Assembly: GCA_025356015.1 (NCBI GenBank)
Contig: JANXYO010000009.1
Location: forward strand, 1-44,928
Length of the DNA: 44,928 nt
Reading direction: 5' to 3'
From: Spirochaetaceae bacterium
Lineage (GTDB): Bacteria; Spirochaetota; Spirochaetia; Treponematales; Rectinemataceae
Each line of letters starts with the position of its first letter. Position 1 is the first letter of the stretch. Made by a program: the position numbers and the translations under genes. Positions 3,066-42,558 of the stretch are shown one piece after another. The notes beneath the pieces were generated by a model. That model was not told the DNA's origin. It did not search any database and saw nothing but the letters and a program-made list of their open reading frames with translations.

Positions 3066-3094
3066 TTGACTGAATGGATGAATTAAGTTAGAGT
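3066..3094 (+). promoter_or_regulatory. Candidate sigma70-type promoter of the feo operon
   Basis: TTGACT (3066-3071), a 17-bp spacer and TAGAGT (3089-3094) fit a -35/-10 pair. Predicted transcription would start around 3100-3102, only a few bases before the feoA ATG at 3105. There is no Shine-Dalgarno sequence between the two, so the mRNA may be leaderless or nearly so. Confidence 0.5.
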
Positions 3095-3102
3095 GATCTA
3101 AC
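3087..3102. promoter_or_regulatory. Perfect dyad operator overlapping the feo -10 region
   Basis: GTTAGAGTGATCTAAC is a perfect 6+4+6 inverted repeat lying on the -10 hexamer and the predicted start site of the feo operon. The TTAG...CTAA arms recall DtxR/MntR-family metalloregulator sites rather than Fur boxes. Binding here would block RNA polymerase, as expected for iron-dependent repression of ferrous iron uptake. The regulator is not encoded in the window; the assignment is inference. Confidence 0.55.
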
Positions 3103-3104
3103 AC

Positions 3105-3356
3105 ATGGCGATACAGATGCAGGTCTCAGATTTGGTGCCGGGTCAGCATTTCAAGGTCCTCAGGATGTCCCTGTCGAAGGAAGTGGGCAAGCGCTTGGTC
3201 GACATGGGCTTCACCGAGGGCCGCCGCGGGGTCGTGATCAGGCGCGGCCTCATCGGGGGCCCGATGCACGTCCGCATCCTCGGCTACGACCTCCTTATCA
3301 GGCGGTCTGAGGCCGCGGGCATCGAGGTCGAGCCCCTCGCTGAAGGGGATGCCTAA
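3105..3356 (+). CDS. feoA: Ferrous iron transport protein A (FeoA, SH3-like)
   Basis: An 83-residue single FeoA domain, the usual size. The core MSLSKEVGKRLVDMGFTEGRRGVVIRRGLIGGPMHVRILGYDLLIRRSEA matches the family's SH3-like barrel, with the conserved LxxMGFTxG turn and GyDLLIRRSEA end. FeoA is a small cytoplasmic partner that modulates the FeoB transporter. Its stop overlaps the feoB start by 8 bases, indicating translational coupling. The ATG at 3105 is used although no ribosome-binding site is seen; a second ATG at 3117 (MQVSDL) is also possible. Confidence 0.92.
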   Translation: MAIQMQVSDLVPGQHFKVLRMSLSKEVGKRLVDMGFTEGRRGVVIRRGLIGGPMHVRILGYDLLIRRSEAAGIEVEPLAEGDA

Positions 3357-5511
3357 GGTGGGCCTGGACGGGATGGCTGCAGTCGATGGAAGGGGCGCTC
3401 CTGGCGGGAGCCCTGGCCCGGTCGCCCCCGCCCTGAAGATCGCCCTCGCCGGAAACCCGAACGCCGGCAAGACCACCCTCTTCAACGCCCTCACCGGCTC
3501 CCACCACAAGGTGGGCAACTACCCCGGCGTCACCGTGGAAAAACGCGAGGGGCGCTGCTCATCCGGCGGTGTGGACTTCCAGGTATTCGACCTCCCCGGC
3601 ATCTACAGCCTCACCGCCTACTCGATGGACGAGGTGGTGGCGCGGGATTTCATCCTTGACGAGGGTCCCGACCTGGTCGTTGACGTCATGGACTCGACCA
3701 ACCTTGAACGCCACCTCTACCTGTGCATGCAGTTCCAGGAACTCGGGATACCCGTGGTGGCCGCCCTCAACATGATGGACGAGGCCGCGGCCGTGGGCAT
3801 CTCGATCGACTCGCTCTCACTGGGAAGGCTTCTGGGGATTCCCTTCGTAAAGACTGTAGGCACGAAGGGCCTCGGCACCGATGAGCTCCTCGCCGTAGTC
3901 GCCAGCCAGGCGCGGGGGGAGTGCGGAGGGACGGGGAGGCAGGTGGACTACGGGGCCGAGCTCGAGGCCTGGCTGGGGCGCGTCGAGGCCCTGATCGCCC
4001 TCGACCCTGGCTTTGGCGCGCGCTACCCGACGCGCTGGCTTGCGGTCAAGCTCCTGGAGAAGGACGCGAACGCCGCCCTGAGGCTTGGAGGCCACAGCCG
4101 GCGTCCCGAGATCCTCGACCTGGTCGCCCAGGCCATCGCCTGGATCGAGAAGCACTTCGGCCGCGACGCCGAGGTCGTCGTCTCGGAGCAGCGCTACGCC
4201 TACATCCATGGCGCCGTGGCGGAAACCGTCAGGATCTCCGCGGCCAGGGGCCGCCCGGTCACCGAGGCTGTGGACAGGATCCTCATGGACCGCTTCCTCG
4301 GCCTGCCCCTCTTCCTCGCGATCCTCTGGGCCGTCTTCCAGGCGACCTTCACAATTGGCGGCATACCCCAGGCCTGGCTCGAGGGCCTGTTCCAGGCCCT
4401 GGCCGCCCTCGCGGCCAGGGTCATCCCCGAGGGGCTCTTCCGCCTCCTCGTCGTCAACGGGATCATAGGCGGGGTCGGGGCCGTGTTCTCCTTCGTGCCC
4501 CTGGTCGTCATCCTCTTCCTCTGTCTGGCCGTCCTCGAGGACCTGGGCTACATGTCGCGCGCTGCCTTCCTCACCGACCGCTTTCTCCATGCCTTCGGCC
4601 TCCATGGCCAGTCCTTCCTGCCCATGATGCTCGGCTTCGGCTGCTCGGTGCCGGCCATCATGGGGGCGCGGACCCTGAAGTCGCGCCGCGACAGGATAGC
4701 GACCATCGTGGCCATCCCCTTCATGAGCTGCGGCGCGAAGCTGCCCGTGTATGTCCTCATGGCGGGAGCCTTCTTCCCGCGGAGGCCTGGCAACGCGGTC
4801 ATGCTTGTCTACCTCGTGGGAATAGCCCTCGCCCTCCTGACGGCATTGCTCTTCAAGCGGACCGTCCTGCGGGGCGACCCGACGCCCTTTGTCATGGAGC
4901 TCCCTCCCTACCGCGTCCCCACCCTGCGGGGCCTCATGTGGCATGTGTGGGAGAAGACCAGCCAGTATATGCGCAAGATGGGGACCATCATCCTGGCGAT
5001 GGCGACCCTGGTCTGGGCCATGACGACCTTCCCCCTCCTGCCGGGCGATGCCTCGGGGCGGGCCCCATCCCCCGAGAAGGCCCTGGCCAACAGCGCCGCG
5101 GGCAGGATCGGCATCTTCCTCGAGCCCGCCCTGAGGCCCATGGGCATGAACTGGAAGCTCGCCGTCGCCACCATCACGGGTTTCGCCGCCAAGGAGGTTG
5201 TCGTGTCCACCCTGGGCATCCTCTACCACGGGGCTCCCGACGCGGCTACCGGCCCGGCCGGGCGGGGAAGCCTCCGCAGCGCCCTCGCGGCGAGCCCCGA
5301 GTTCTCCCCCTTCCTGGCCTTCGTCCTCATGCTCGCGACCCTCGTCTTCCCACCCTGCGTCGCCGCCCTGGCCACCATCAAGGCGGAGATCGGCTGGCGC
5401 TGGCTGGGTTTCGTCATCCTCTACCAGCTCGCCCTCGGCTGGCTGATCTGCACAGGCATCTACCAGTTCGCGGGGGCTCATGGCCCGGCCATCCTTGGGG
5501 GAGGACAGTGA
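3349..5511 (+). CDS. feoB: Ferrous iron transporter FeoB
   Basis: A 720-residue inner-membrane Fe(II) permease with an N-terminal G domain. G1 is GNPNAGKTT (residues 35-43), followed by the switch region NYPGVTVEKREG, G3 DLPGIYSL and G4 NMMD. A helical GDI-like linker leads to the membrane part with the two Gate segments, including the conserved GFGCSVPAIMGART and MSCGAKLPVYVLM motifs. The first ~28 residues before the G domain are Gly/Pro-rich and unusual, so an internal start (for example ATG at 3373) cannot be excluded. Expressed from the feoA promoter, with the small Cys-rich partner directly downstream. Confidence 0.96.
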   Translation: MPKVGLDGMAAVDGRGAPGGSPGPVAPALKIALAGNPNAGKTTLFNALTGSHHKVGNYPGVTVEKREGRCSSGGVDFQVFDLPGIYSLTAYSMDEVVARDFILDEGPDLVVDVMDSTNLERHLYLCMQFQELGIPVVAALNMMDEAAAVGISIDSLSLGRLLGIPFVKTVGTKGLGTDELLAVVASQARGECGGTGRQVDYGAELEAWLGRVEALIALDPGFGARYPTRWLAVKLLEKDANAALRLGGHSRRPEILDLVAQAIAWIEKHFGRDAEVVVSEQRYAYIHGAVAETVRISAARGRPVTEAVDRILMDRFLGLPLFLAILWAVFQATFTIGGIPQAWLEGLFQALAALAARVIPEGLFRLLVVNGIIGGVGAVFSFVPLVVILFLCLAVLEDLGYMSRAAFLTDRFLHAFGLHGQSFLPMMLGFGCSVPAIMGARTLKSRRDRIATIVAIPFMSCGAKLPVYVLMAGAFFPRRPGNAVMLVYLVGIALALLTALLFKRTVLRGDPTPFVMELPPYRVPTLRGLMWHVWEKTSQYMRKMGTIILAMATLVWAMTTFPLLPGDASGRAPSPEKALANSAAGRIGIFLEPALRPMGMNWKLAVATITGFAAKEVVVSTLGILYHGAPDAATGPAGRGSLRSALAASPEFSPFLAFVLMLATLVFPPCVAALATIKAEIGWRWLGFVILYQLALGWLICTGIYQFAGAHGPAILGGGQ

Positions 5512-5512
5512 C

Positions 5513-5662
5513 ATGAAACTCTTCGACATCGTCTCCATCTCGATCGCCATCTGCGCTGCCGCCCTCTATCTGGGCCTGCGCGCCCGAGCGACCCTGCGAA
5601 AAAGCGCGAAGACAGGCTGCGCGGACTCGGGCGGCTGCTCGGGCTGCTCCGGCTGCGGCTGA
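5513..5662 (+). CDS. FeoB-associated Cys-rich membrane protein
   Basis: A 49-residue protein starting at the ATG one base after the feoB stop, with GGGGGAGG upstream as ribosome-binding site. Residues 1-24 form one transmembrane helix (FDIVSISIAICAAALYLGL), followed by a basic segment and a Cys/Gly-rich tail (GCADSGGCSGCSGCG) with four cysteines. This is the architecture of the small proteins encoded next to feoB in many anaerobes (FeoB_associated family). Proposed roles are iron or redox handling at the transporter; the exact function is not established. Confidence 0.8.
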   Translation: MKLFDIVSISIAICAAALYLGLRARATLRKSAKTGCADSGGCSGCSGCG

Positions 5663-18517: not shown

Positions 18518-19297
18518 ATGGCATCCGGGGAGATACAGATCCTTTCGCGAGCGATAGCCGTCCTTGACTGCTTCAGCTCGACCCAGCCACAGCTCGGGGT
18601 CAGGGAGATTGCCAGACAGCTGGACATGTCGGCGAGCACGGTGGGCAGGCTCCTTGCCGCCCTCCATTCCGCAGGCATCCTGAACCAGGACGCCGCGACC
18701 CGACTCTACCGCATGGGTCCAAAGGTGATGGCCTGGAGCTCCATCTACACGCGGGCCCTCGACGTGCGCGAGAGCGCCCGCCCGATGCTGGAGGAGATGC
18801 ACAGGCTCACAAATGAGACGGTGAGCCTTTACTCCCTCGAGCGGATGGAGCGGGTCTGCGTGGACTGCATAGAGAGCTCCGAGATCGTCCGCGTCGTCCT
18901 TCGCGTCGGCGAGCGCATGCCTCTGCACGCCGGCTCCTCCGGCAAGATACTGCTTGCCTACATGCCCCCCCTTGAGATCGAGAAGGTCCTCTCGGGCAGC
19001 CTCGAGAAGATGACGGCGAACACCATCACGAGCCGCAAGAACCTGCTCAAGGAGCTCGAGACCATCCGGGCCCGGGGATATGCGACAAGCTTCGGGGAAA
19101 GGTTCAACGAGGTGATTGGCCTCGCCGCCCCCATCTTCAACGCCACGGGCAAGGTGGTCGCGGCCCTCAACGTGGCGGGCCCCAAGAACCGCTTCACCGA
19201 GGCCCATGTGGGGAAATTCGCCCCGAGGATCATCGAGCTGGCCAATCGGGTCTCGCACGCCCTCGGCTATCCAGGGAAAGGCCCGCTGGGACCTTAG
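18518..19297 (+). CDS. IclR-family transcriptional regulator, likely master of the local catabolic regulon
   Basis: 259 residues. An N-terminal winged HTH (about 8-70, with QLGVREIARQLDMSASTVGRLLAALHSAGIL) is followed by the IclR effector domain (about 80-250), including MPLHAGSSGKILLAY, ARGYATSFGERFNEVIGLAAPIFNATGKVVAALNVAGP and the closing helix. IclR proteins bind small organic acids and usually repress catabolic genes from palindromic sites near the promoter. The gene has its own copy of the 27-bp operator that also precedes three other units nearby, so it is the obvious candidate regulator of all four. Effector unknown. Co-transcribed with the downstream aldehyde dehydrogenase (40-bp gap). 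Confidence 0.9.
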   Translation: MASGEIQILSRAIAVLDCFSSTQPQLGVREIARQLDMSASTVGRLLAALHSAGILNQDAATRLYRMGPKVMAWSSIYTRALDVRESARPMLEEMHRLTNETVSLYSLERMERVCVDCIESSEIVRVVLRVGERMPLHAGSSGKILLAYMPPLEIEKVLSGSLEKMTANTITSRKNLLKELETIRARGYATSFGERFNEVIGLAAPIFNATGKVVAALNVAGPKNRFTEAHVGKFAPRIIELANRVSHALGYPGKGPLGP

Positions 19298-42542: not shown

Positions 42543-42558
42543 GGATGACATGTGAGGG

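Follow-up and report, generated by a model that had tools for sequence, protein, structure and literature searches.

A 2023 review (PMC10317159) states that Fur handles iron in most Gram-negative bacteria, with DtxR-type proteins serving manganese only, and describes the occurrence and role of IdeR half sites in other species as an open question. In the IdeR–DNA structure, one dimer occupies repeats 1 and 3 and the other repeats 2 and 4, and IdeR of Saccharopolyspora erythraea also binds the half site TTAGGNNNNCCTAA as one dimer (PMC8464063). Gln43 of IdeR contacts the inner cytosine of the half site, yet the same study reports this residue to be dispensable (PMC8464063). In the 19-bp DtxR/IdeR box TTAGGTTAGSCTAACCTAA, TTAG-N6-CTAA occurs at positions 1 and 6, as two overlapping units offset by 5 bp. 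In the order Treponematales, to which the genome described here also belongs, the DtxR-family protein TroR acts on the tro operon from an operator near or on a sigma-70 promoter, an 18-bp dyad ATTTTGATATATCAAAAT in Treponema denticola and ACTTTGATGCATCAAAAT in Treponema pallidum (PMC2628430). In Leptospira, another spirochaete, dRNA-seq placed many mRNA starts 0–10 nt from the start codon (PMC5243855).

We analysed a stretch of 44,928 nucleotides, hereafter the window, from the genome of a Spirochaetaceae bacterium (GCA_025356015.1; 4.17 Mb in 150 contigs; G000 in our labels). A dyad on the promoter of its feo genes is very probably, judging from sequence comparison, the operator of a DtxR-family metal-dependent repressor controlling ferrous iron uptake. 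The core dyad GTTAGAGTGATCTAAC lies at 3087–3102 and reads GTTAGA-GTGA-TCTAAC, with perfect 6-bp arms at 3087–3092 and 3097–3102. The first-pass annotation called it a perfect 16-bp dyad, which holds for the arms and is too strong for the whole, because the 4-nt centre GTGA has no self-complementarity and 12 of the 16 bases are palindromic. The operator, a predicted single-dimer DtxR-family site, is AGTTAGAGTGATCTAACA at 3086–3103 (no strand assigned). These 18 bp hold the only TTAG-N6-CTAA unit there, and no other match to the dyad with up to three mismatches was found in the whole window (shuffle mean, 0.05).

The dyad overlaps a sigma-70-like promoter on the forward strand, as the first-pass annotation had stated, and all coordinates agree: the −35 hexamer TTGACT at 3066–3071, a 17-bp spacer, the −10 hexamer TAGAGT at 3089–3094 within the dyad, and an ATG at 3105, 10 nt beyond the −10. 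This promoter is the sole match of its kind in the 301 bp between 2950 and 3250 (shuffle mean, 0.1). Transcription usually starts 6–8 nt after the −10 element, and the predicted start, read from the −10 position, is 3101–3103 on the forward strand.

From ATG 3105, feoA (3105–3356, +) encodes 83 residues, of which 5–77 match the FeoA domain (PF04023, E 1.1e-14); homology supports an in-frame ATG at 3117. Its end is overlapped by feoB (3349–5511, +), encoding a ferrous iron permease with PF02421, PF07664, PF07670, PF17910 and TIGR00437 matches. A short cysteine-rich ORF follows (5480–5662, +). It had no family match in Pfam and is probably the third gene of the feo operon; we take it to resemble the FeoB-associated small proteins. 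On the other side lies a divergent ORF (2091–2993, −; from MPELV), for which no NCBIfam match was found. The GTG at 3104 listed as its start would extend it through the operator, and the ATG at 2993 would leave the operator clear. Elsewhere in the window, four promoters (18444+, 22493+, ~29697− and 32655−) carry TAGGAC...GTCC-type dyads beside the −10, and 18518–19297 encodes a protein that looks IclR-like by eye; a local IclR regulon for these dyads is possible.

The first-pass annotation found no ribosome-binding site at feoA, and the pairing energies bear this out. Shine–Dalgarno (SD) pairing amounts to −2.4 kcal/mol before ATG 3105 and −1.9 before ATG 3117, whereas random positions in the window average −4.2 and the FTR1 gene of this genome has −12.2. 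The FeoA Pfam domain and the start codons of relatives align with the second ATG, which leaves the N-terminal MAIQ outside the conserved part, and two leaders have to be considered: one of 2–4 nt with a four-residue extension, or one of 14–16 nt without an SD. The longer one, an ordinary short leader with transcription starting at 3101–3103 and translation at 3117, would not be strictly leaderless. We regard it as a possible reading, though the less probable of the two: the domain and the relatives begin there, but 3117 is not preceded by an SD either, and the in-frame ATG 3105 has a promoter spacing found 71 times in the genome and also at the NRAMP gene of G003, dtxR of G051 and feoA of G087.

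Those 71 places match TTGAC-N17-19-TANNNT-N6-11-ATG, for which the reversed pattern gave none. We inspected 30 of these loci: the ATG opens an ORF of 80 codons or more at 22 of them, and an SD-like motif is present at one. Gaps of 12–41 nt between promoter and ATG gave 157 matches vs 7 reversed, or about 5 per gap length against about 12 at gaps of 6–11 nt. The near-leaderless pattern was clearly above control in most of the 58 genomes of the order that were searched, with a few, such as G044 and G055, that were not; the relative G033 has 267 such arrangements vs 34 reversed. In most relatives, feoA itself has a leader with an SD. Considering the missing SD, the 71 arrangements vs 0 and the leaderless mRNAs of Leptospira, near-leaderless translation of feoA from ATG 3105 is plausible, and it would not be unusual here, as one member of a genome-wide class. 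The Leptospira starts were measured by dRNA-seq (PMC5243855), whereas ours are read from the −10-to-ATG spacing alone. An aromatic leader ORF had been listed as similarly arranged, and it is: at 42551 (−), the short aromatic-rich ORF MSSMARTFPAGAASLPSSYIYSYFYFCS follows TTGACC-17-TAGCTT with its ATG 7 nt past the −10, though without such a dyad. At aroA (17048+), the ATG lies 10 nt past the −10 of TTGACC-17-TANNNT, and no SD pairing was found.

The first-pass annotation had proposed a genome search for the dyad at other iron genes, and this search was rewarding. The exact 18-bp pattern WGTTAGN6CTAACW occurs twice in the genome vs once for its reversed form, so that copy number alone is weak evidence and the case is carried by the location of the two sites. 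The second (G000:C145:20770-20787), beside a TTGACA promoter, stops 16 nt short of the GTG start codon of a gene for an FTR1-family iron permease (PF03239, E 7e-40). Looser patterns were not enriched genome-wide, neither TTAGN6CTAA with one mismatch (58 vs 415 reversed) nor TGTTAGN6CTAACA with three (136 vs 290). As these are rarer than their reversed controls, only exact sites are informative in this genome, and in 15 stretches around weaker sites we mostly found no metal gene. A site with one mismatch, some 70 nt upstream of a cation diffusion facilitator (cation efflux) gene (L304:1422-1439; G000:C138:143421-143438), may be due to chance. Autoregulation of dtxR was considered for this genome and rejected, the dtxR start overlapping the upstream gene with no dyad nearby. 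Two genes for similar MarR-like proteins (L329, G000:C30:4821-4862; L364, G000:C122:9578-9619) have near-leaderless promoters with TTAG-N4-CTAA dyads, a spacing that differs from that of the feo dyad.

A FeoA match was retrieved in 78 of 98 related genomes searched. From these we took 58 loci in 56 genomes of the order Treponematales, defined by a strong FeoA match with at least 100 nt upstream; this left out G077:C579 and G056:C68 (less than 100 nt upstream) and all matches weaker than that of G043:C140. Within 250 nt upstream, TGTTAGN6CTAACA is present with 0–2 mismatches at 17 of the 58 loci and with 4–6 at the other 41, none having three. All 17 dyad loci beat their shuffles (0–1% of 100 shuffles as good). 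In a second set of named records, which shares some contigs with the first and consists of Spirochaetota bar one record labelled Omnitrophota, feoA was found in 75 of 80 loci and the dyad with up to two mismatches in 34 of these 75 (hand count). The dyad is exact at feoA of Gracilinema caldarium and has two mismatches at that of Breznakiella homolactica; both of these feoA genes have leaders of the ordinary kind. Among 66 related sites, 42 have a TTGAC-like promoter whose −10 overlaps the dyad, whereas positions drawn at random from these upstream regions gave such an overlap in 427 of 2960 cases. An operator on the −10 is thus a common arrangement among related sites. Many relatives have a second dyad about 50–70 bp away; the window has one only. 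At the second feoA of G014 (L186) and at feoA of G051 (L081), the dyad overlaps the first codons, with the start codon inside the dyad or at its edge.

A single protein of this genome has a DtxR metal-binding domain (G000:C70:7182-7550; 122 aa). It matches PF01325 (E 3e-17) and PF02742 (E 2e-17), both above cut-off, and has no third, SH3-like domain. Orthologues, defined by at least 50% identity to it, accompany 16 of the 17 dyad loci and 4 of the 41 loci without a dyad (Fisher test, 9e-10, uncorrected for shared ancestry). The converse holds for fur, which lies directly upstream of feoA at none of the 17 dyad loci vs 29 of the 41 others (5e-7, likewise uncorrected). When the count is restricted to the 29 loci without adjacent fur, an orthologue accompanies 16 of 17 dyad loci and 1 of the 12 that lack a dyad. 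The exceptions are few. G074 has the dyad and no DtxR match, its genome being 87% complete and two other members of its genus having dtxR; G001 and G060 have an orthologue and no feoA dyad; and G006 and G016 have a fur-feoA arrangement, yet carry the dyad before a second feoA.

The association extends beyond feoA. Exact sites were found in 18 of 27 genomes with an orthologue vs 4 of 39 without (Fisher test, 2.5e-6) among 66 scanned genomes, of which 30 had been chosen partly after seeing dyads; in the 36 outside those 30, the counts are 5 of 8 vs 0 of 28. Of 34 exact sites in the 27 orthologue genomes, 22 by our reading stand immediately before feoA (first or second copy), FTR1, a gene for a P19-type Fe2+ transport protein, NRAMP, ferritin or dtxR. 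The neighbours of the other 12 include an SBP_bac_5 binding protein or its upstream response regulator (2), a NifH-like gene, AhpC, ABC transporters or permeases (4, two by eye), a small membrane protein, a lyase-like protein and an alkyltransferase, with one site whose neighbour is unclear. One exact dyad (L188:4241; G041:C1:625240) has a NifH-like gene cluster on one side and a divergent ABC permease gene on the other. The four exact sites in genomes without an orthologue lie inside an ORF (G022), before feoA (G074 and G093) and at no assigned gene (G088).

Two of these loci repeat the window's layout closely. In G051, the ATG of the dtxR orthologue stands directly after the exact dyad TGTTAGTCTAGTCTAACA, under a TTGACT-17-TAGTCT promoter; dtxR is followed by a gene that looks feoA-like by eye, whose start is overlapped by another exact dyad, and then by a feoB-like gene. 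The regulator gene, the predicted operators and the target are here together. The exact dyad at the NRAMP gene of G003 lies in TTGACG-17-TAGGGT-11 nt-ATG, the same layout as TTGACT-17-TAGAGT-10 nt-ATG at the window's feoA.

The operator resembles the IdeR half site in its TTAG/CTAA register and in the single dimer predicted on it, TTAG-AGTGAT-CTAA having the 6-nt spacing of a DtxR/IdeR single-dimer site. The 19-bp two-dimer box was not found at the feo dyad: one copy of the unit is present at 3086–3103, where TTAGGTTAGSCTAACCTAA has two, and there is no sign of a second overlapping dimer. The inner G and C of the half site are A and T here, and both are present in 1 of 62 related sites; the outer G/C and T/A are kept (TGTTAG...CTAACA). 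The protein differs in a corresponding way. Ser37 and Pro39, which contact the thymine, are invariant in 26 orthologues and Thr40 is always Ser, while the position of Gln43 is never Gln, a loss consistent with that of the inner G/C. Both systems have iron genes as targets and a Met/Cys/Glu/His primary metal site, M7/C99/E102/H103 being DtxR M10/C102/E105/H106 at an offset of 3. The ancillary site of H79, E83 and H98 is not retained, with H76 kept and T80 and E95 in place of E83 and H98. The present regulator further differs from IdeR (PMC8464063) in its lack of an SH3-like domain and in belonging to Spirochaetota instead of Actinobacteria, and its single-dimer site is apparently the normal operator, not an exception.

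The residues make iron likelier than manganese as the sensed metal. The MntR selectivity residues Asp8 and Glu99 are replaced by Met and Cys, a combination associated with Fe(II) preference in the IdeR review (PMC10317159), and the predicted targets are mainly iron genes (feo, FTR1, P19 and ferritin). Nevertheless, a regulator that senses manganese in the manner of MntR or TroR, with feo as a target of a manganese or mixed regulon, deserves consideration, although we hold it to be unlikely. The best PDB match of the protein is MntR (2h09, E 4e-17) and its best NCBIfam models are the MntR equivalogs, both of which score below cut-off (102.9 of 153 and 78.4 of 138 bits); the DtxR Actinobacteria equivalog is also under its cut-off (57.7 of 290 bits). 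There is also the site at the NRAMP gene of G003, and the first metal ligand is Asp in place of Met in 13 of the 26 orthologues, so that iron is less securely assigned when the whole family is considered. With these substitutions and MntR leading the searches, some room is left for manganese or mixed sensing. TroR itself was ruled out as the regulator by operator sequence and metal ligands: the feo dyad is unlike ATTTTGATATATCAAAAT in its letters, as the TroR operator is given in PMC2628430, and TroR has Asn and Glu at the selectivity positions and about 29% identity to the G000:C70 protein.

It is quite improbable that a regulator of another family (MarR or TetR, for instance) binds GTTAG-N6-CTAAC and that the DtxR co-occurrence reflects lineage history. 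The co-occurrence statistics ignore shared ancestry, and dyads of similar letters with a 4-nt centre stand before the MarR-like genes at G000:C30:4821 and C122:9578. However, exact dyads lie at the ATG of the G051 dtxR orthologue and at the next gene, feoA, the register is that of the IdeR half site, and presence of the dyad tracks the dtxR orthologue within families.

Binding by a Fur-family protein is more doubtful still. Fur control of feoAB would share the target operon and the expected iron-dependent repression with the DtxR-type control favoured here, but the protein family and the operator differ, and at feoA adjacent fur and the dyad are mutually exclusive (the dyad is at 0 of 29 loci with adjacent fur). 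The Fur box has the 19-bp consensus GATAATGATAATCATTATC. Upstream of the window's feoA its best match is 10 of 19, equalled by 40% of 20 shuffles, and matches of at least 14 of 19 occur at none of the 17 dyad loci vs 12 of the 41 others. The genome does have one FUR-family protein (G000:C95); its gene adjoins a rubrerythrin gene (named by eye), which suggests that it is PerR-like. The first-pass annotation had read the TTAG/CTAA arms as DtxR/MntR-type and not Fur: DtxR over Fur is upheld by the co-occurrence, the lack of a Fur box and the register, and the likeness does not extend to the TroR/MntR-type operator sequence. A chance palindrome or an RNA hairpin can be dismissed with near certainty: the arms are short at 6 bp and the genome has two exact copies in 4.17 Mb vs one reversed, but the sequence, beyond mere symmetry, is conserved at orthologous promoters, and the dyad, because it overlaps the −10, lies mostly outside the transcript.

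We therefore favour control by the DtxR-family protein. In iron-replete cells, the metal-loaded 122-aa repressor (G000:C70:7182-7550), presumably with Fe(II) as co-repressor, would bind TTAG-N6-CTAA on the feoAB promoter as one dimer. With the bound dimer lying over the −10, the transcription start and the few bases leading to the start codon, RNA polymerase would be blocked; low iron would release the repressor from the operator. The FTR1 permease gene, at a different place in the genome, would be under the same repressor. For feoA, the mRNA probably starts 2–4 nt ahead of ATG 3105 and would be translated without a Shine–Dalgarno sequence.

The component parts (a DtxR regulator, a feo operon and a sigma-70 promoter) are of known kinds. 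Our literature search, in which subscription papers were thinly covered, found no publication on a single-dimer DtxR-type standard operator replacing Fur in spirochaetes. On balance, we lean towards the view that two unrelated regulators have replaced one another in the iron control of feo within a single spirochaete order: Fur, encoded beside feoA, and a short DtxR-type protein that lacks the SH3 domain and has a half-box, single-dimer site as its standard operator. At feoA here, the NRAMP gene of G003, dtxR of G051 and feoA of G087, operator, −10, transcription start and start codon would be fused within about 25 bp, one dimer masking a leaderless gene start. The present loci offer whole regulons that seem to rely on single-dimer sites, their targets being feo, FTR1, ferritin and NRAMP. 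A natural comparison is provided by sister lineages in which the feo operon would answer either to Fur or to DtxR, and this family of loci may also serve as a simple case for studying the repression of leaderless genes.
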